From assembly GCF_002240055.1 (NCBI RefSeq), contig NZ_CP016753.1:1550001-1614000 (forward strand): a stretch of 64,000 nt of DNA, read 5' to 3'. Below the pieces are notes generated by a model. The model was not told the origin of the DNA, made no database searches, and worked only from the letters and a program-made list of their open reading frames with translations. This document shows positions 2,620 through 14,261 of the stretch, piece after piece. The position numbers and the translations under genes are program-made. Source of the stretch: Leptotrichia sp. oral taxon 498. Its GTDB lineage: Bacteria > Fusobacteriota > Fusobacteriia > Fusobacteriales > Leptotrichiaceae. Within the stretch, counting starts at the first letter, position 1. The number at the start of each line of letters is the position of its first letter.

Positions 2620-3327
2620 ATGGAAAAAATACCAAAAATAAAAATTATAAGTTTAGGAGAAACATCTCTAAGCACTATTGAGAAAGAAATAATTACACAT
2701 GAAAATATAAGCATTATTACAATTAAAAATGACTACAAAGATTTAAAAATAAATTTTCAAGATACAGATGTAATTTTGATAATTTTAAACACATATTTTG
2801 AAAATGATAAAAATTTTGCCTTAGAAATAATCATAAACACTCAAAAAAACGACATTTTTACTGGCATTTACGATATTGGAAATGGCTATACTGACCTATT
2901 TGATTCAAAAACAGACTTTATCATAAAATGCAAATCTTCAGAAGATTTAAAAAATGGAATCAATGGAATAACAAAAACTTTAACAGCAAAAGGAATGGTT
3001 ACTCTTGATTTAGCTGACTTAAAAACCGTATTTCAAAAAGCCTCAAAATCTTTTGTAATTTTTGAAAAAGGAAATTTAGAAACTTTTGATGATTTCTTGC
3101 AAACCCTAAAATTAAAGCTGGAAACTTTTGATAAAAATAGAACTTATAAAATATTTTTGAATATAACAGCAGGAAAAAATATCGAATTGACTCTGATAAA
3201 AGATATTGCTAAAATAATGACTAATATTCTTAATGAGCGGACATTTCTTTGGGGACTGCAAATATATCCAGAAAATGAAAATTTCATAAATATTATTGCT
3301 TACATTGTGGAAGATTTAGTTAAATAA
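2620..3327 (+). CDS. FtsZ/tubulin-superfamily-like protein lacking the nucleotide-binding loops
   Basis: 235 residues, against about 350-400 for FtsZ, with a good AAGGAG site upstream. By eye it follows FtsZ end to end. IKIISLGETSLS (7-18) sits where FtsZ has IKVIGVGGGGNN. SIITIKNDYKDL (31-42) matches YIAVNTDAQAL. GINGITKTLTAKGMVTLDLADLKTV (two pieces, 113-137) matches the QGISDLI...GLINLDFADVKT region. KIFLNITAGKNIEL (177-190) matches the VLMNITGGTNLSL segment. The glycine-rich GGGGxN loop and the GGGTGTG signature are absent. The T7-loop aspartates that act on the neighbouring subunit's nucleotide are kept (D130, D133). It is therefore a likely pseudo-GTPase able to touch an FtsZ end without binding GTP. 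Homology is inferred without a database search. Confidence 0.65.
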   Translation: MEKIPKIKIISLGETSLSTIEKEIITHENISIITIKNDYKDLKINFQDTDVILIILNTYFENDKNFALEIIINTQKNDIFTGIYDIGNGYTDLFDSKTDFIIKCKSSEDLKNGINGITKTLTAKGMVTLDLADLKTVFQKASKSFVIFEKGNLETFDDFLQTLKLKLETFDKNRTYKIFLNITAGKNIELTLIKDIAKIMTNILNERTFLWGLQIYPENENFINIIAYIVEDLVK

Positions 3328-3364: not shown

Positions 3365-4573
3365 ATGGAAAGAAACAATATTTTTAATTTTGCAACGTCA
3401 GAGCTGTCACAGGATGCTTTTATATGTTGGTTATGTAACTGGGTAAATTTTGATGACAATAGTTTATCAGAAGATGAAAAAAAATTAAAATCACTTGCAA
3501 CTGAATTTATTGAAAAAATGTTAGGTGAAAAGCTCGAAGATAGGAAAGTGAATATAAAAAGACAATATCAGAAAATAGACGTACTATTGGAAATTCAGAA
3601 TAAAACAGAATTTATAACTAAAGGGAATAATATAAATCCAATAGTAGACATGTATGTAATAATAGAAGATAAAGTGGGAACAGGTTTACATAGCAATCAG
3701 ATTGAGAAATATAGAGAATTAATATCTGAAAAAAATGAAAAAGATAATGGAAGTAGGGCTAAAATAAAAGTAGTTTATTATAAAATATACGATGAAGATA
3801 ATATGGAAAGATTAAAAGAGAATGGTGTGAATGTAATATTAGGAAGAGAAAACATCCTAGAATTATTAAAAGAATACAAGGATAAGATTAATAATTCAAT
3901 ATTTGAAAATTATCATAATTATTTGAGCAATATAGAAACAGATGTAAATTCATATGAAAAAAAGAACTTGGAAGACTGGAATTCAAACTGTTATATCGGA
4001 TTTTTTAAAGAATTAAAAAACGAAAAAAATTTATTAGAACATGCTATTGGAAGACAAAAAGATTGTAGTTGGGGTTATGTGAATAACTCATCAGGTGGAT
4101 TTATGGGAATGTGGTGGTTTCCTTTAAGTGAAGAAAAAATTAATAAATTAACAGAAACTTCTGATGAAGATATTTATTTACAAATAGAACAATATAATCA
4201 GAAAAATATAATTGCAATAAAATATTCAGTTCCTAAAAAAAATAAAAATAATAAAGAACTTTCAAAAGAAGATTTCGAAAAGAAAGTAACAATTGCTTCC
4301 GAAAAACGTAAGGAACTTTTTTCTAAATTAAAAAATAAATTAGAAAATGAGTCGAAAGATATACTAAAATGCGAAAATAAACCAGAAAATATAAAAAAAT
4401 TTGAAAATATACTAAAAAATGAAAAGTTTCAGAAAAAATATTTTAGAGCAGGTCAGTATATGACAGTAGGATATTTAGAATTTGAAAATATTGATGATTG
4501 TAAAGATAAAATAAAAATCCTTCAATATGCTTTAAATCTTTTGTTAAAAGGGTGTGTAAAAATTTTTGTGTAA
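3365..4573 (+). CDS. PD-(D/E)XK nuclease family protein
   Basis: 402 residues, 38 bases after the FtsZ-like gene, with AGAAGGG ahead of the ATG. The N-terminal half carries a PD-(D/E)XK-type core: a conserved helix with E13 (SELSQDAF), D72 in QKIDVLLEI, and E101/K103 in YVIIEDKVGTG. HSNQIEKYRE then follows, as in PDDEXK_4-type proteins. The C-terminal half, about 210-402, is of unknown fold with GGFMGMWWFPLS and a YMTVGYLEFE strand. It is a paralogue of the protein at 449, but with the catalytic residues intact. Such nucleases are common effectors in restriction and abortive-infection systems. DNase activity is inferred from the motif only. Confidence 0.72.
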   Translation: MERNNIFNFATSELSQDAFICWLCNWVNFDDNSLSEDEKKLKSLATEFIEKMLGEKLEDRKVNIKRQYQKIDVLLEIQNKTEFITKGNNINPIVDMYVIIEDKVGTGLHSNQIEKYRELISEKNEKDNGSRAKIKVVYYKIYDEDNMERLKENGVNVILGRENILELLKEYKDKINNSIFENYHNYLSNIETDVNSYEKKNLEDWNSNCYIGFFKELKNEKNLLEHAIGRQKDCSWGYVNNSSGGFMGMWWFPLSEEKINKLTETSDEDIYLQIEQYNQKNIIAIKYSVPKKNKNNKELSKEDFEKKVTIASEKRKELFSKLKNKLENESKDILKCENKPENIKKFENILKNEKFQKKYFRAGQYMTVGYLEFENIDDCKDKIKILQYALNLLLKGCVKIFV

Positions 4574-7208: not shown

Positions 7209-7513
7209 AAGTATTCCTCCTAATAAAGTTTATTATTTTTTTAAAATTATCATATAATCTTAATATGATTTTACCTTGAAATAGTGAAAATGCAATAGTT
7301 TTAGAGAAAAAATAGATTTCTAATTTTATACTGCTTTTTAAGTTTTGAAAAATAGACAATAAAATTAGTTTTAAATATTTTAAAGGATTGCATAGTAAAA
7401 TGGGAAAAAAAATCAATATTTAAAAAAAGTTTTGTACTGAAAATAAATTTTATGTGAAACTATGGTATAATATTAACAAAAAATAAATTATGAATAGATA
7501 TAAGGAGAAAGAA
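7209..7513. other. divergent intergenic region between the pcp unit and hsdM
   Basis: About 300 AT-rich bases hold the control regions of two outward-facing units. On the plus side there is the extended -10 at 7463-7471. On the minus side only the AGGAGG site of the DUF969 gene is clear. I see no further gene or hairpin. Confidence 0.5.
7463..7471 (+). promoter_or_regulatory. extended -10 promoter for the hsd operon
   Basis: TG-G-TATAAT at 7463-7471 is an extended -10 element with no good -35. It lies only 19 bases before the ATG at 7490. That makes the GTG start at 7514, which has its own AAGGAG, the more credible hsdM start. Confidence 0.55.
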
Positions 7514-9091
7514 GTGGCAAATACAAAAGAATCAAATGAAACGGCACAAAGAGCAGAATTGCATCGTAAAATCTGGGCAATTGCAGATAATGTGCGTGGA
7601 GCGGTGGATGGTTGGGATTTTAAGCAATATATTTTGGGAATATTATTTTATAGATTTATTTCGGAAAATATGACAGAGTTTTTTAACAAAGCAGAACATG
7701 AAGCTGGAGATTTGGAGTTTAATTATGCGGATATTTCTGATGAAGAAGCCGAAGAAGATTTTAGAGCTGGTACTGTGGAAGATAAAGGATTTTTTATTTT
7801 ACCAAGTCAACTTTTTGAAAATATAGTAAAAACAGCGAGAACCAATGAAAATTTAAATACAGATTTAGCAAATATTTTTAAAGCTATTGAAGCAAGTGCT
7901 GTTGGATTTGAGTCGGAAGATGATATTAAAGGATTATTTGAAGATGTCGACACTACGAGTAACCGTTTAGGTGGAACAGTTGCTGAAAAAAATACAAGAT
8001 TAGCAGATATTTTAACAGGAATTTCTGAAATTAATTTTGGGAGTTTTCAGCATAATGATATAGATGCTTTTGGAGATGCTTATGAGTATCTGATTTCAAA
8101 TTATGCCAGCAATGCAGGTAAATCAGGAGGAGAATTTTTTACTCCACAAACTGTTTCAAAACTTTTGGCACGGCTTGTGATGGAAGGAAAAGACAGCATA
8201 AATAAAGTTTATGATCCAACATGTGGAAGTGGTTCGTTGCTACTACAAATGAAAAAGCAGTTTGAGGAACATATTATTGATGAGGGATTTTTTGGACAGG
8301 AAATAAACATGACTAACTTTAACTTGGCTCGTATGAATATGTTTTTACACAATGTAAACTACAATAATTTTTCAATAAAACGTGGAGATACTTTACTTAA
8401 GCCGTTGCATAATGATGAAAAACCTTTTGATGCAATTGTTTCAAATCCGCCATATTCGATTAAATGGATAGGAGACGGAGATCCGACACTTATTAATGAT
8501 GAACGATTTGCACCAGCAGGAAAACTTGCACCAAAATCTTATGCAGATTATGCGTTTATAATGCATTCATTAAGTTATTTGTCAAGCAAAGGAAGAGCAG
8601 CAATAGTATGTTTTCCAGGTATTTTTTATAGAAAAGGCGCAGAAAAAATTATTCGTAAATATTTAATAGACAACAATTTTGTAGATTGTGTAATACAGCT
8701 TCCAGAAAACCTGTTTTTTGGAACATCAATAGCGACTTGTATTTTAGTAATGGCAAAGAATAAGACAGAAAATAAAACGTTATTTATTGATGCAAGTAAG
8801 GAATTTAAAAAAGAAACGAATAATAATATTTTACAACCTGAAAATATTGAAAAAATAGTAAGTGAATTTAGAGAAAAAACTGATGTAGAATATTTTGCAA
8901 GATTGGTTGATAATAGTGAAATAGCTGAAAATGACTATAATTTGTCAGTTTCAACTTATGTGGAAAAGGAAGATACTCGTGAAAAAATAGACATCGATGT
9001 GTTGAATAAGGAAATTGAGGAAACAGTAAAAAGAATAGATGAATTAAGGGCTTCTATAAATGAGATAGTGAAGGAGCTTGAAAGCGAATAA
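7514..9091 (+). CDS. hsdM: type I restriction-modification system, DNA methyltransferase subunit
   Basis: 525 residues from a GTG start at 7514, chosen because AAGGAG sits at 7502-7507; an in-frame ATG at 7490 lies upstream of that site. An N-terminal HsdM helical domain (about 10-160) precedes an N6-adenine methyltransferase core. The core has the AdoMet motif [13 protein letters not shown] (about 233-245) and catalytic NPPY in [11 protein letters not shown] (about 311). The C-terminus is a coiled coil used to dock HsdS. It methylates adenine at the sequence set by HsdS and forms M2S and, with HsdR, R2M2S. It is the first gene of hsdM-S-R. Confidence 0.95.
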
Positions 9092-9202: not shown

Positions 9203-11197
9203 ATGAAATTTATGGAAAAACTTTTAGTGGGGGAAAAGGTTGAGTGGAAGAAACTGGGAGAAGTTTGTTTAGAAAAATTTTGGATAATGCCGGCAACTCC
9301 TAAATTTTTAGATAAAGGAATTCCTTATATAACAGGTAAAAATATAAAAAATGGTGAGATTGATTATAAAAATGTCAAATATATATCAAAAGAAATTTAT
9401 CATTTGATAGCACAAAATAGAAATATAAGAAGTGGAGATATATTAGTTAGTATGATAGGAACTATTGGAGAAATAGGGATAGTGAAAAAGAATACAGATT
9501 TTTATGGTCAAAATTTATATCTGCTTAGATTAAATGAAAATTTTATATTAAATAAATATTTCTTTTATTATTTCACACAAATACATATAAAAGATAAACT
9601 TATTTCTAAAAAAAATTCATCAAGTCAAGGATATATTAGAGCAGGGCAATTAGAAGAATTAAAAATCCCAATTCCATCAATAGAAACACAAGAAAAAATT
9701 GTAAAAATACTTGACAATTTCACAAAATGTGTTACAGAATTACAGGCAGAATTACAGGCAAGAAATAAGCAGTATAACTATTATAGAGATATGTTGTTAA
9801 GTGAAGATTACTTGAATAAAATTTCTGAAAAATTTACAGAAAACCAATTTATAGAATGGAAAATATTAGGAGAACTTTTTGAATTTAAAAATGGTTTGAA
9901 TAAAGGAAAGGATTTTTTTGGAAAAGGAACACCAATTATAAATTATATGGATGTCTATAAAAGGAATAAAATTTATTCAAATGATTTGATAGGTTTAGTA
10001 GAAACAACAGAAAATGAACAAAAAAGATATAGTATAAAAAGAGGAGATGTTTTTTTTACTAGAACTTCTGAAACAAAAGAAGAAATAGGAAAAACATCAG
10101 TTTTATTAGATGATGTTGAAAAGGGAGTTTTTAGTGGATTTGTATTAAGAGCAAGACCAATTACAGAATTATTATTACCAGAATATTGTGCTTATTGTTT
10201 TGAAACATATGAATTTAGAAAAAATGTTATCAGATATAGCACGTATACAACTAGAGCATTAACAAATGGGACAACACTTTCAAATTTAAAAATACCAGTC
10301 CCTTCAATAGAAATCCAAAATAAAATTGTAAAAATTTTAGATAGATTTCAGGAACTTCTTTCTGATACAAAAGGATTATTGCCTTTGGAAATAGAACAAA
10401 GAAGAAAACAATATGAATATTATCGAGAAAAACTCTTGACATTTGAAAGTGAAGAAGTGTATGCTCTAAGAACAGAACAGAACAGAACAGAACAGAACAG
10501 AACAGAACAGAACAGAACAGAACAGAACAGAACAGAACAGAACAGAACAGAACAGCGACAAATAACGAGTGAATTTTTTGAATTACTTAAAGAAGCAGCA
10601 AAAATTGCTGGAGTTGATATAAGTGATAAAGTTGAGTGGAAAACATTGAGAGAAATAGCAAAATATTCAAAAGATAGAATATCATTTGAATATTTAAATA
10701 AAAAAAACTATGTTGGAGTAGAAAATTTATTAAAAAATAGATTAGGCAAAATAGATTCAAATAATGTTCCCGCAGAGGGGACTTTAATAAAATTCAATAT
10801 TGGAGATATTCTAATTGGAAATATAAGACCATATTTAAGAAAAATATGGTTTGCTGATGTTGAAGGAGGAACAAATGGAGATGTTTTAGCAATCAAGGTA
10901 AAAAATAAGAATAAAATATTATCTGAATTTCTTTATCAACTTTTATCAGATGAGAAGTTTTTTGATTATAACATCAAATATTCAAAAGGAGCAAAAATGC
11001 CACGTGGGGACAAAGAAAAAATAATGGAATATAAAATCCCGCTACCTCCACTGCCAGTACAAGAATATATCGTATCAATTCTGGATAAATTTGATGCTTT
11101 AGTCAATGATTTATCACAGGGATTACCAAAAGAAATAGAATTAAGACAGAAACAGTATGAATATTACAGGGAAAAATTATTGGATTTTGAAAAATAG
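9203..11197 (+). CDS. hsdS: type I restriction-modification specificity subunit with three recognition domains and an AACAG slippage tract
   Basis: 664 residues, against about 400-450 for ordinary HsdS. Three target-recognition units are visible. Each begins (V/I)EWK-L and ends with an (I/L)P(I/P)PS/LP-Q--IV-ILD motif followed by a helix with YYR: about 13-200, 215-415 and 475-660. Between units two and three lies a run of NRTEQ repeats (about 423-451) encoded by 17 AACAG units. A five-base unit is out of register with codons, so gain or loss of one unit shifts frame. Both other frames stop within 17 bases of the tract, leaving a normal two-domain protein of about 450 residues. In this sequence the long form is in frame. 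Confidence 0.92.
   Translation: MKFMEKLLVGEKVEWKKLGEVCLEKFWIMPATPKFLDKGIPYITGKNIKNGEIDYKNVKYISKEIYHLIAQNRNIRSGDILVSMIGTIGEIGIVKKNTDFYGQNLYLLRLNENFILNKYFFYYFTQIHIKDKLISKKNSSSQGYIRAGQLEELKIPIPSIETQEKIVKILDNFTKCVTELQAELQARNKQYNYYRDMLLSEDYLNKISEKFTENQFIEWKILGELFEFKNGLNKGKDFFGKGTPIINYMDVYKRNKIYSNDLIGLVETTENEQKRYSIKRGDVFFTRTSETKEEIGKTSVLLDDVEKGVFSGFVLRARPITELLLPEYCAYCFETYEFRKNVIRYSTYTTRALTNGTTLSNLKIPVPSIEIQNKIVKILDRFQELLSDTKGLLPLEIEQRRKQYEYYREKLLTFESEEVYALRTEQNRTEQNRTEQNRTEQNRTEQNRTEQRQITSEFFELLKEAAKIAGVDISDKVEWKTLREIAKYSKDRISFEYLNKKNYVGVENLLKNRLGKIDSNNVPAEGTLIKFNIGDILIGNIRPYLRKIWFADVEGGTNGDVLAIKVKNKNKILSEFLYQLLSDEKFFDYNIKYSKGAKMPRGDKEKIMEYKIPLPPLPVQEYIVSILDKFDALVNDLSQGLPKEIELRQKQYEYYREKLLDFEK
10471..10555 (+). 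repeat. pentanucleotide tandem repeat (AACAG)x17 inside hsdS
   Basis: Eighty-five bases of perfect AACAG repeat. In the present frame it encodes the period-five peptide NRTEQ. Directly after it the other frames meet TAA at 10563-10565 and TGA at 10570-10572. Tracts of this sort mutate by slipped-strand mispairing and are hallmarks of phase variation. Confidence 0.97.
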
Positions 11198-11234: not shown

Positions 11235-14200
11235 ATGTCGGAAAAAAATGCGATTTATGAAACATTAACTATTGCTGAGATGACGAATGGAATTATTTTG
11301 GCTAATTATGAAGAAATACTTCAAGTTCAAGATACATATCAGAGTGAAAAAGAACTTGAAGATGGGATGATAAGGGATTTAGAAAGTCAAGGGTATGAAA
11401 GATTTTATGGGAAGACATCGGAGGAACTTTATAAAAATTTGAAGATTCAAATTGAAAGATTAAATAAAGTTGCTTTTACAGATAAAGAATGGGAAAGATT
11501 TTTAGTGGAATATCTTGATTGTCCAAATGACGGAATGATTGAGAAAACTAGAAAGATTCAGGAAAATTATATCTATGATTTTATTTTTGATGACGGACAT
11601 TTGAAAAATATAAAAATTATTGATAAAAAAAATATACATAATAATATTTTACAGGTTTGTAATCAAATTAAGCAAAAAGGTAAGCATAAAAATCGTTATG
11701 ATGTAACAGTATTGGTTAATGGATTGCCGCTTGTTCATATAGAATTGAAAAAACGTGGAGTAAGTCTTCATGAGGCATTTAGTCAGATTGATAGATACGG
11801 CAAGGAAAGTTTTAATACTGAAAATTCACTTTATAAATTTGTTCAGATTTTTGTAATTTCAAATGGAACGTATACTCGTTATTTTGCAAATACTACGGCA
11901 CAGAATAAAAATCATTATGAATTTACATGTGAGTGGGCAGATGCGAAAAATAAAGTTATTAGAGATCTTAAAGATTTTACAGCAACATTTTTTGAAAAGC
12001 GAACTATTTTAGAAGTTTTGACAAAATATTGTGTTTTTGATTCAAATGATAATTTGCTAATAATGCGACCGTATCAAATAGCAGCAACTGAACGAATTTT
12101 GTGGAAGATAGAATCTAGTTATCAAAATAAGAAATGTGGAAAAATTGAAGCTGGAGGATTTATTTGGCATACTACAGGTTCAGGAAAAACTTTGACTTCT
12201 TTTAAAACGGCAAAACTTGCTACAGAGCTTGAATATATTGATAAAGTGTTTTTTGTGGTTGATAGAAAAGACTTGGATTATCAGACAATGAAGGAATATC
12301 AGAAATTTCAGCCTGATAGCGTAAATGGAAGTAGGGATACAAAGGAACTTAAACGAAGTATAGAAAAACAGGACAATAAAATAGTTGTTACAACAATTCA
12401 GAAATTGAATGAATTTGTCAAAAAAAATCCAAGCCATGAAATTTACGATAAACATTGTGTCATAATTTACGATGAATGTCATCGTTCACAATTTGGAGAT
12501 GCACAAAAAAATATTAGAAAATCTTTTAAAAATTATTATCAGTTTGGATTTACAGGGACACCAATTTTTCCTGAAAATGCTCTTGGAAGTGATACAACAG
12601 CTGGAATTTTTGGAGCTCAATTACATAGTTATGTTATAACAGATGCTATTCGTGATAAAAAAGTTTTAAAATTTAAAGTGGATTATAATGATATTAGGGC
12701 AAAATTTAAAGCGGCTGAAACAGAAACAGATGATAAAAAGCTCAAGGAACTTGAAAAAAGAATGTTGTTACATCCTGAGAGAATTTCTAAAATAGTAGAA
12801 TATATTTTAAAAGTATATAATACAAAAACTCATAGAAATGAATATTATAATATAAAACAGAAACGGCTAAACGGATTTAATGCTATATTTGCTGTTCAAA
12901 GTGTAGAAGCGGCAAAACTTTATTATGAAGAATTTCAAAAACAGCAAGAAAATTTTCCTGAAGAAAAAAGACTGAAAGTAATGACAATTTATAGTTTTGC
13001 TGCGAATGAAGAGCGAAATGCGATAGGAGATATTCCTGATGAAAATTTTGAGCCAAGTGCAATGGAATCGACAGCGAAAGAATTTTTGGATAAAGTGATA
13101 TCTGATTACAACGATTATTTTAAAACAAATTTTTCAACAAATGGAAACGAATTTCAGAATTATTATAAAGATTTGTCTAAAAAGGTTAAGGATAAAAAAA
13201 TTGATATTTTAATTGTTGTGGGAATGTTTTTGACAGGATTTGATGCACCAACATTAAATACTTTGTTTGTTGATAAAAATTTGAGATACCATGGATTAAT
13301 TCAAGCGTTTTCAAGAACAAACCGTATTTTGAATAAAGTCAAAACTTTTGGAAATATTGTATGTTTTAGAGATTTGGAAAAGGCTACAAAAAATGCTATT
13401 AAAACTTTTGGAGATGATAATAGTGTAAATATAATTCTTGAAAAAAGTTATAACGATTATATAAATGGATTTAAAGACGAGGAAACAGGGAAATCAGTAA
13501 AAGGATATATAAATTTGTGTAATGAAATAGTTGAAAAATTTCCAAAGCCTGTTGAAATTGAAAAAAATCAAGATAAAAAGGAATTTGCAGAATTATTTGG
13601 AGAATTACTTAAAACAGAAAATATACTTAAGAATTTCGATGAATTTGAAAATTTTGAGAAAATAATATCAGATAGACAAATGCAGGATATGAAGAGTGTT
13701 TATGTGGATATTTGTGAAGACATAAGAAATACTGGAAAAAATGATGAAAATAAAAATGGAGAAGAAGAAATCGATTTTTCTGATATTGAATTTCAAATTG
13801 ATTTGCTTAAAACAGATGAAATTAATTTAGATTATATTTTAGAGTTAATTTTAGAAAAGACAAAAGAACATGATGATATTGAAACATTGAAATCTGAAAT
13901 AAGAAGAATTATACGTACAAGTTTAGGAACTAGAGCTAAAGAGAATTTAGTTATAAATTTTATTAACAAAACAGATTTAAAAAAATTGAAAAATAATGGA
14001 GAAATTCTTGACGCTTTTTATAAATATGCAAAAGAAGAAAAGAAGGAAAAAATTGATGAATTAGTTAAAGATGAGAATTTAAAGGAAGATTCTAGAAGAT
14101 TTATTGAAAAATCTATAAATAAAGGTTTTGTTGATTATGCTGGTTCTGAATTAGATAGTATTCTTCCGCCGACTTCACGAAGAAAAGGGGCAAGAGAGGT

Positions 14201-14261
14201 TAAAAAAAGGACAATATTGCAGAAAATGCAGAGAATAGTAGAAATTTTTATAGGGATTTAA
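11235..14261 (+). CDS. hsdR: type I restriction enzyme, endonuclease/translocase subunit
   Basis: 1008 residues, full length for HsdR, 37 bases after hsdS. The N-terminal nuclease domain has the PD-(D/E)XK residues, ending in HIELKKRG at about 168-175. It is followed by a superfamily 2 helicase: Walker A TTGSGKT (about 312), DECH box in IIYDECHRSQFG (about 413), motif III FTGTP, and VGMFLTGFDAP with FSRTNRI in the second RecA domain. It cuts and translocates DNA in complex with HsdM and HsdS. All key motifs are intact, so the system looks functional. Confidence 0.96.
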   Translation: MSEKNAIYETLTIAEMTNGIILANYEEILQVQDTYQSEKELEDGMIRDLESQGYERFYGKTSEELYKNLKIQIERLNKVAFTDKEWERFLVEYLDCPNDGMIEKTRKIQENYIYDFIFDDGHLKNIKIIDKKNIHNNILQVCNQIKQKGKHKNRYDVTVLVNGLPLVHIELKKRGVSLHEAFSQIDRYGKESFNTENSLYKFVQIFVISNGTYTRYFANTTAQNKNHYEFTCEWADAKNKVIRDLKDFTATFFEKRTILEVLTKYCVFDSNDNLLIMRPYQIAATERILWKIESSYQNKKCGKIEAGGFIWHTTGSGKTLTSFKTAKLATELEYIDKVFFVVDRKDLDYQTMKEYQKFQPDSVNGSRDTKELKRSIEKQDNKIVVTTIQKLNEFVKKNPSHEIYDKHCVIIYDECHRSQFGDAQKNIRKSFKNYYQFGFTGTPIFPENALGSDTTAGIFGAQLHSYVITDAIRDKKVLKFKVDYNDIRAKFKAAETETDDKKLKELEKRMLLHPERISKIVEYILKVYNTKTHRNEYYNIKQKRLNGFNAIFAVQSVEAAKLYYEEFQKQQENFPEEKRLKVMTIYSFAANEERNAIGDIPDENFEPSAMESTAKEFLDKVISDYNDYFKTNFSTNGNEFQNYYKDLSKKVKDKKIDILIVVGMFLTGFDAPTLNTLFVDKNLRYHGLIQAFSRTNRILNKVKTFGNIVCFRDLEKATKNAIKTFGDDNSVNIILEKSYNDYINGFKDEETGKSVKGYINLCNEIVEKFPKPVEIEKNQDKKEFAELFGELLKTENILKNFDEFENFEKIISDRQMQDMKSVYVDICEDIRNTGKNDENKNGEEEIDFSDIEFQIDLLKTDEINLDYILELILEKTKEHDDIETLKSEIRRIIRTSLGTRAKENLVINFINKTDLKKLKNNGEILDAFYKYAKEEKKEKIDELVKDENLKEDSRRFIEKSINKGFVDYAGSELDSILPPTSRRKGAREVKKRTILQKMQRIVEIFIGI

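Follow-up and report, generated by a model that had tools for sequence, protein, structure and literature searches.

A pentanucleotide array in hsdS of a Leptotrichia Type I restriction-modification locus: a probable switch between two and three target recognition domains

The Type I locus and its specificity gene

The window analyzed here, 64,000 nucleotides from the single-contig, 2.15-Mb genome of Leptotrichia sp. oral taxon 498 (G000), contains an entire Type I restriction-modification locus, in which hsdM, hsdS, and hsdR stand together in the order M-S-R and each fits its own family model (Table 1). The TIGR00497 and TIGR00348 matches of hsdM and hsdR both exceed the curated cutoffs, hsdR starts 37 bp past hsdS, and the genome has one such hsdS only. 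The nearest solved relative of HsdS by sequence is EcoR124 (7bst, E = 1e-31), and because HsdR also carries the EcoR124_C domain and the first conserved region (CR1) of HsdS contains four-residue repeats (TELQ/AELQ), the system is, by kinship of sequence, EcoR124-like (Type IC-like). Foldseek searches with predicted models confirmed the HsdS fold and nothing beyond it. An unlabelled PADLOC specificity model (PDLC03126, 690 positions) covers the entire ORF with its three target recognition domains (TRDs) at 1267 bits, which indicates that three-TRD proteins are already present in the databases with their third domain uncommented. The idea that this model is the trace of an isolate with a longer array was rejected, since separate matching of fragments showed that its array part has the same length as here (30 positions) and that the extra positions fall in the TRDs. 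Upstream of the locus, a 235-aa protein (2620-3327) with a sub-threshold FtsZ match (TIGR00065, E = 3e-8) adjoins a WYL-domain gene (1654-2595), and the two form a possible uncharacterised defence cluster. Also near the locus, a 402-aa protein (3365-4573) weakly matches the PADLOC candidate PDC-S26 (E = 7e-6).

Table 1. Features of the Type I locus, in positions of the window.
Feature	Position	Strand	Basis or remark
hsdM	7490..9091	+	TIGR00497 hsdM equivalog, 700 bits versus cutoff 243
hsdS, three-TRD form in the present phase, 664 aa	9203..11197	+	Methylase_S x3
TRD1 with CR1	9203..9805	+	Central (EcoR124-like) class; TELQ/AELQ repeats (12-bp repeat 9735-9760)
TRD2 with CR2 (RFQELLSDTKGLLPLEIEQRRKQYEYYREKLLTF)	9806..10444	+	Diverged terminal-like class
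Pentanucleotide array, 17.4 x AGAAC, encoding (RTEQN)n; putative frame switch	10469..10555	+	Tandem Repeats Finder
Stops of the two other frames	10563..10572	+	TAA 10563-10565, TGA 10570-10572
Leader (FFELLKEAAKIAG), TRD3, and CR3	10556..11194	+	Canonical terminal class; expressed in frame only
hsdR	11235..14261	+	TIGR00348 hsdR; Pfam EcoR124_C

The array lies inside the hsdS ORF between the second and third TRDs, where 17 AACAG units exactly fill positions 10471-10555, as originally predicted. Pfam Methylase_S matches the whole ORF in three stretches and the portion upstream of the array in two. Tandem Repeats Finder gives a period of 5 and 17.4 copies with 100% matches, and the score of 174 is the highest in the window, in which the longest period-5 run measures 87 nt; 60 sequences simulated from the same stretch with a first-order Markov model reached 20 nt at most. 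Elsewhere in the genome the pattern is absent even when 2 mismatches in 20 bases are allowed, and the array contains no slippery motif for ribosomal slippage. As the unit is 5 bp long, one third of the unit counts reads into the third module. In the other two frames a stop follows no more than 10 and 17 bases past the array, and changes of -2, -1, +1, and +2 units yield two-TRD ORFs of 450, 454, 455, and 459 aa that terminate in NSDK or TATNNE, the three-TRD product arising at every third unit count only. It had been claimed that any single gain or loss of a unit shifts the frame into a stop within 17 bases and that the present frame adds a third domain, and both statements agree with the sequence. 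The short product had further been described as a complete, conventional two-domain HsdS: it does look complete, with two TRDs, but its terminal region CR2 belongs to a diverged class.

This class assignment comes from a comparison of the conserved regions, which fall into three position-specific classes common to several genera and share identities of 0.46 (CR1-CR2), 0.47 (CR1-CR3), and 0.60 (CR2-CR3). A set of two-TRD HsdS proteins served as reference; it was drawn from viral contigs, which gave one locus when scanned with CR2, 53 loci with CR3, and no match with the whole protein. Against 30 ordinary two-TRD HsdS of this set, CR1 is of the central class (62% versus 47%), CR3 of the terminal class (64% versus 49%), and CR2 terminal-like but diverged (54% versus 46%). 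The region following TRD3 thus fits the ordinary terminal region of an EcoR124-like HsdS. Within the window hsdS, TRD2 and TRD3 show no BLAST match to one another at E <= 1e-8.

Arrays at the homologous place in Fusobacteriales

Conserved placement of the tract in relatives had been proposed as a check, and it was pursued across species: related loci were sought first among 13 genomes from the genus, then among 96 from the order, fetched with their flanks, and read directly. A whole-protein scan of the genome contigs returned distant HsdS only. At nine loci, the window included, an array lies at the homologous place, 5-8 codons downstream of CR2, between the CR2 motif YYREKLLTF and the leader FFxLLKEAA. 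The units are AGAAC, AGCAC, ACACG, GCCT, AC, and AAGC, in counts from 6 to 35, and all nine have a simple-sequence tract within the ORF, a unit that is not a multiple of 3, and one long frame beside two short ones. Besides the window, G012 (8 AGCAC) and G084 (7 GCCT) are in the long, three-TRD phase; the short, two-TRD phase is found in G003 (28 AGCAC), G009 (11 units, one of them AGCAT), G083 (12 AC), G049 (9 ACACG), G029 (6 GCCT; TRD1 beyond the contig end), and Fusobacterium vincentii SB055 (35 AAGC; a 2.1 Mb record filed as plasmid), the last of which ties the series to the Fusobacteriales. One phase in three yields the long ORF at each locus, and the observed division, three of nine long and six short, is the one that random phase predicts. 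Array lengths and phases vary between the species compared, and none of the seven two-TRD hsdS loci of the same order has an array.

Among the window genome, G012, and G009, HsdM is 98-99% identical and the unit counts are 17, 8, and 11. All 17 units of the window read AGAAC versus AGCAC in its genus-mates, and since one substitution runs through every unit, the array has turned over by repeated loss and gain of units, a statement that applies between species and not within a culture.

A different role for the third module would be that of a silent cassette, a recombination donor to TRD1 or TRD2, next to which the array is incidental. TRDs do travel from species to species and from one position to another: G003 and G009 have TRD2 sequences 96% identical to each other but differ in TRD1 and TRD3, relatives of TRD3 occupy the first or second position in other HsdS proteins, and the modules lie between direct repeats of about 50 nt. 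A donor role leaves unexplained, however, that arrays of different units recur at one place and only in TRD3-bearing loci, as well as why three of nine are in frame, and we regard it as quite improbable. Shuffling of the inversion type was also considered and rejected, as there are no strong inverted repeats within the locus.

Some lineages live without a switch, since in G028 the array is almost gone and the frames are split, and G082 (L084, 5279-5303) has TAACA units with stops in all three frames and is locked in the two-TRD form, TRD3 still being open. In G007 there is no array, and hsdM and hsdR are broken too. The hsdM of G005 (L086) is 92% identical to that of the window and is followed by ORFs of 314 and 1359 aa at the place of hsdS, so the specificity gene seems to have been displaced by an insertion. 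In F. vincentii SB055 (L092), the hsdM region of the locus contains a G13 run (3130-3142), and to judge from this run hsdM may be phase-variable by itself, besides hsdS.

Selection on the third module and its translation

TRD3 is open in the out-of-frame loci, its other two frames carrying 18-33 stops. Its dN/dS is 0.20 for the window genome compared with G009, and 0.15 for the pair G029/G049, both of which are out of frame; for TRD1 and TRD2, which are translated in all phases, values range from 0.15 to 0.26. By these ratios purifying selection acts on TRD3, even where both of the genomes compared are out of frame.

An alternative is that TRD3 is translated alone as a half-S subunit whenever the array is out of frame, both phases then containing TRD3, fused or free. 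In other systems, half-S subunits with a single TRD work as dimers (PMC3936762), and a promoter-like TTGACA-18-TATGCT lies just upstream of the array. Against this, ATG, GTG, and TTG are absent from the first 30 codons of TRD3 in the window, the first 80 codons in G003 have no start codon either, and the compared loci do not share a conserved start codon accompanied by a ribosome-binding site. TRD3 has no usable start of its own, so ribosomes must enter it by reading on from TRD2, which the long phase allows. Judged from these codons, independent translation of TRD3 as a half-S subunit is unlikely, and we give very little credence to an arrangement in which it explains both phases.

The DNA just upstream of the array (10406-10446, AAACAATATGAATATTATCGAGAAAAACTCTTGACATTTGA) is more conserved between genera than coding requires. 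Synonymous difference is 0.29 in the CR2 block versus 0.58 in the CR3 block, a rare CTC codon is kept in this DNA and its relatives, and the promoter-like motif (10436-10465) is found in four members of the genus and in F. vincentii. Candidate explanations are a promoter, a recombination anchor, or a recent exchange.

The motif also bears on the idea that the main effect of the array is polar, in which case the short phase, leaving about 620 untranslated bases before hsdR, would lower restriction while methylation goes on. Gene order and the 37-bp gap before hsdR fit such an effect, but selection on the amino-acid sequence of TRD3 would be unexplained and the promoter-like site could itself supply hsdR; polarity as the principal outcome is hardly credible.

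The proposed switch and its place among known systems

The original prediction that the tract toggles the domain number of HsdS is supported by nine homologous arrays, the occurrence of both phases, purifying selection on TRD3, and turnover of the array, and taken together the compared loci argue strongly that the switch is genuine. The interpretation has support as far as architecture, conservation, and selection are concerned, and a slipped-strand phase switch in the hsdS of an EcoR124-like Type I system, alternating between two- and three-TRD forms, is the likely explanation of the locus. The array would gain and lose units by slippage, which we infer to take place within cultures as well. 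One third of the counts, among them the 17 units present here, would read through into the leader, TRD3, and CR3 to give the three-TRD HsdS, and the remaining counts would stop just past the array to give TRD1-CR1-TRD2-CR2. The two-TRD form would methylate a TRD1/TRD2 site; the three-TRD form would, also or instead, methylate a TRD1/TRD3 site through CR1-CR3 pairing, or a TRD2/TRD3 or TRD3/TRD3 site, in the manner of JHP1422 of Helicobacter pylori. Each population would then hold cells that differ in methylome and restriction specificity.

The antiparallel helices that hold both TRDs of a two-TRD subunit are made by its central and terminal regions (PMC3510504). For this reason the short form can be expected to assemble TRD1 with TRD2, and CR3 would in the long form be an additional, better-matching partner of CR1. 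Because CR2 is diverged and CR3 is an ordinary terminal region, the addition of TRD3 may change the partner of TRD1 and not just append a domain. It is conceivable, and we propose it tentatively, that the frame picks the partner: CR1-CR2 pairing in the short form would give TRD1/TRD2, and in the long form CR3, reaching CR1 via an array-encoded linker adjustable in three-unit steps, would compete to give TRD1/TRD3, alone or also. Two AlphaFold models, with the terminal region of the alignment set on CR2 or CR3, reached a pTM of 0.48-0.49, with TRD1 and TRD2 confident and TRD3 weak, and around TRD3 they are too weak to show which conserved regions pair.

The expected outcome of a phase change is an altered or added methylation specificity. 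The three-TRD form could also be inactive or inhibitory, so that the array would switch methylation between on, with two TRDs, and off, with three, specificity being unchanged. CR1 would indeed have two competing partners, and the NgoAV loci include genomes for which no active form is predicted (PMC9577141). A merely blocking tail, however, would not need purifying selection like that on TRD1 and TRD2, and JHP1422 is active on two sites with three TRDs, which leaves an on/off switch as an unlikely alternative.

If the two- and three-TRD forms do alternate as proposed, phase variation of the number of recognition domains would be a conserved design and not one odd allele, with changing units at a kept position. 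If the frame in addition picks the partner of TRD1, one tract would swap half-site recognition without DNA rearrangement, an arrangement standing in several families of Fusobacteriales. The two phases would provide natural isogenic pairs for studying the assembly of a three-TRD HsdS with HsdM and the bipartite sites that it modifies. In F. vincentii and related bacteria mixed methylomes would be likely, with consequences for transformation barriers and for resistance to phages. Out-of-frame genomes, whose hsdS looks broken or split in annotation, probably represent the other phase instead.

EcoR124 (Type IC) resembles the window system in sequence, in the CR1 repeats, and in HsdR, but its HsdS has two TRDs. 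In EcoR124, the length of the central repeat changes the spacer of the target and not the domain number, whereas the array of the window would alter the domain number. The CR1 repeats of the present series (9735-9760 and relatives; TELQ/AELQ, TAEL in G028) number two or three copies depending on the locus, and by analogy with the EcoR124 spacer this copy number may be a second, independent source of specificity change.

Closer in principle is NgoAV of Neisseria gonorrhoeae, in which a polyG tract in hsdS switches between one and two TRDs and specificity changes (PMC9577141). Both systems have a simple-sequence tract in hsdS just past a conserved region, where a frameshift alters the TRD number. 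The tract of NgoAV is a homopolymer after the first TRD, whereas the pentamer array of the window hsdS, choosing between two and three, follows TRD2-CR2. In at least four viral contigs a repeat lies right after CR1 of HsdS (polyG in L106/L157; AAGC/GCAA units in L107, L109, and L114), and by position these are candidate NgoAV-like one/two-TRD switches. The REBASE survey of Atack et al. (2020), as cited in PMC7394358, reports simple repeats in 7.9% of hsdS genes, and the window gene belongs to the same class of potentially phase-variable hsdS. Given the NgoAV precedent, a change of domain number by slippage is not new in principle. The literature searched, mostly outside subscription papers, contained no description of a tract switching between two and three TRDs whose position is conserved across families while its units change, and no publication on a three-TRD tract switch in Fusobacteriota.

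In the Type IIG enzymes JHP1272 and HP1353-HP1354 of H. pylori, a homopolymer near the C-terminus adds a recognition domain and alters specificity (PMC3936762). A frameshift at a repeat tract thus adds an extra recognition domain there as well, although these are single-chain Type IIG enzymes and not HsdS, and the domain they gain is similar to part of a TRD. Three-TRD HsdS proteins are also present in Mycoplasma agalactiae (PMC3077401) and in H. pylori J99, where JHP1422/JHP1423 (M.Hpy99XV) combines an HsdS of three consecutive TRDs with one HsdM and methylates two sites; in constructs of JHP1422, TRD1+TRD3, TRD2+TRD3, and TRD3 alone each suffice for one site (PMC3936762). The window hsdS likewise has, in its present phase, three TRDs in one frame. 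In JHP1422, however, TRD2 and TRD3 are identical, whereas those of the window differ, and its variation is ascribed to repeat recombination with no frame-switching tract described, where the window hsdS has its array. Since JHP1422 methylates two sites, extra TRDs are compatible with activity.
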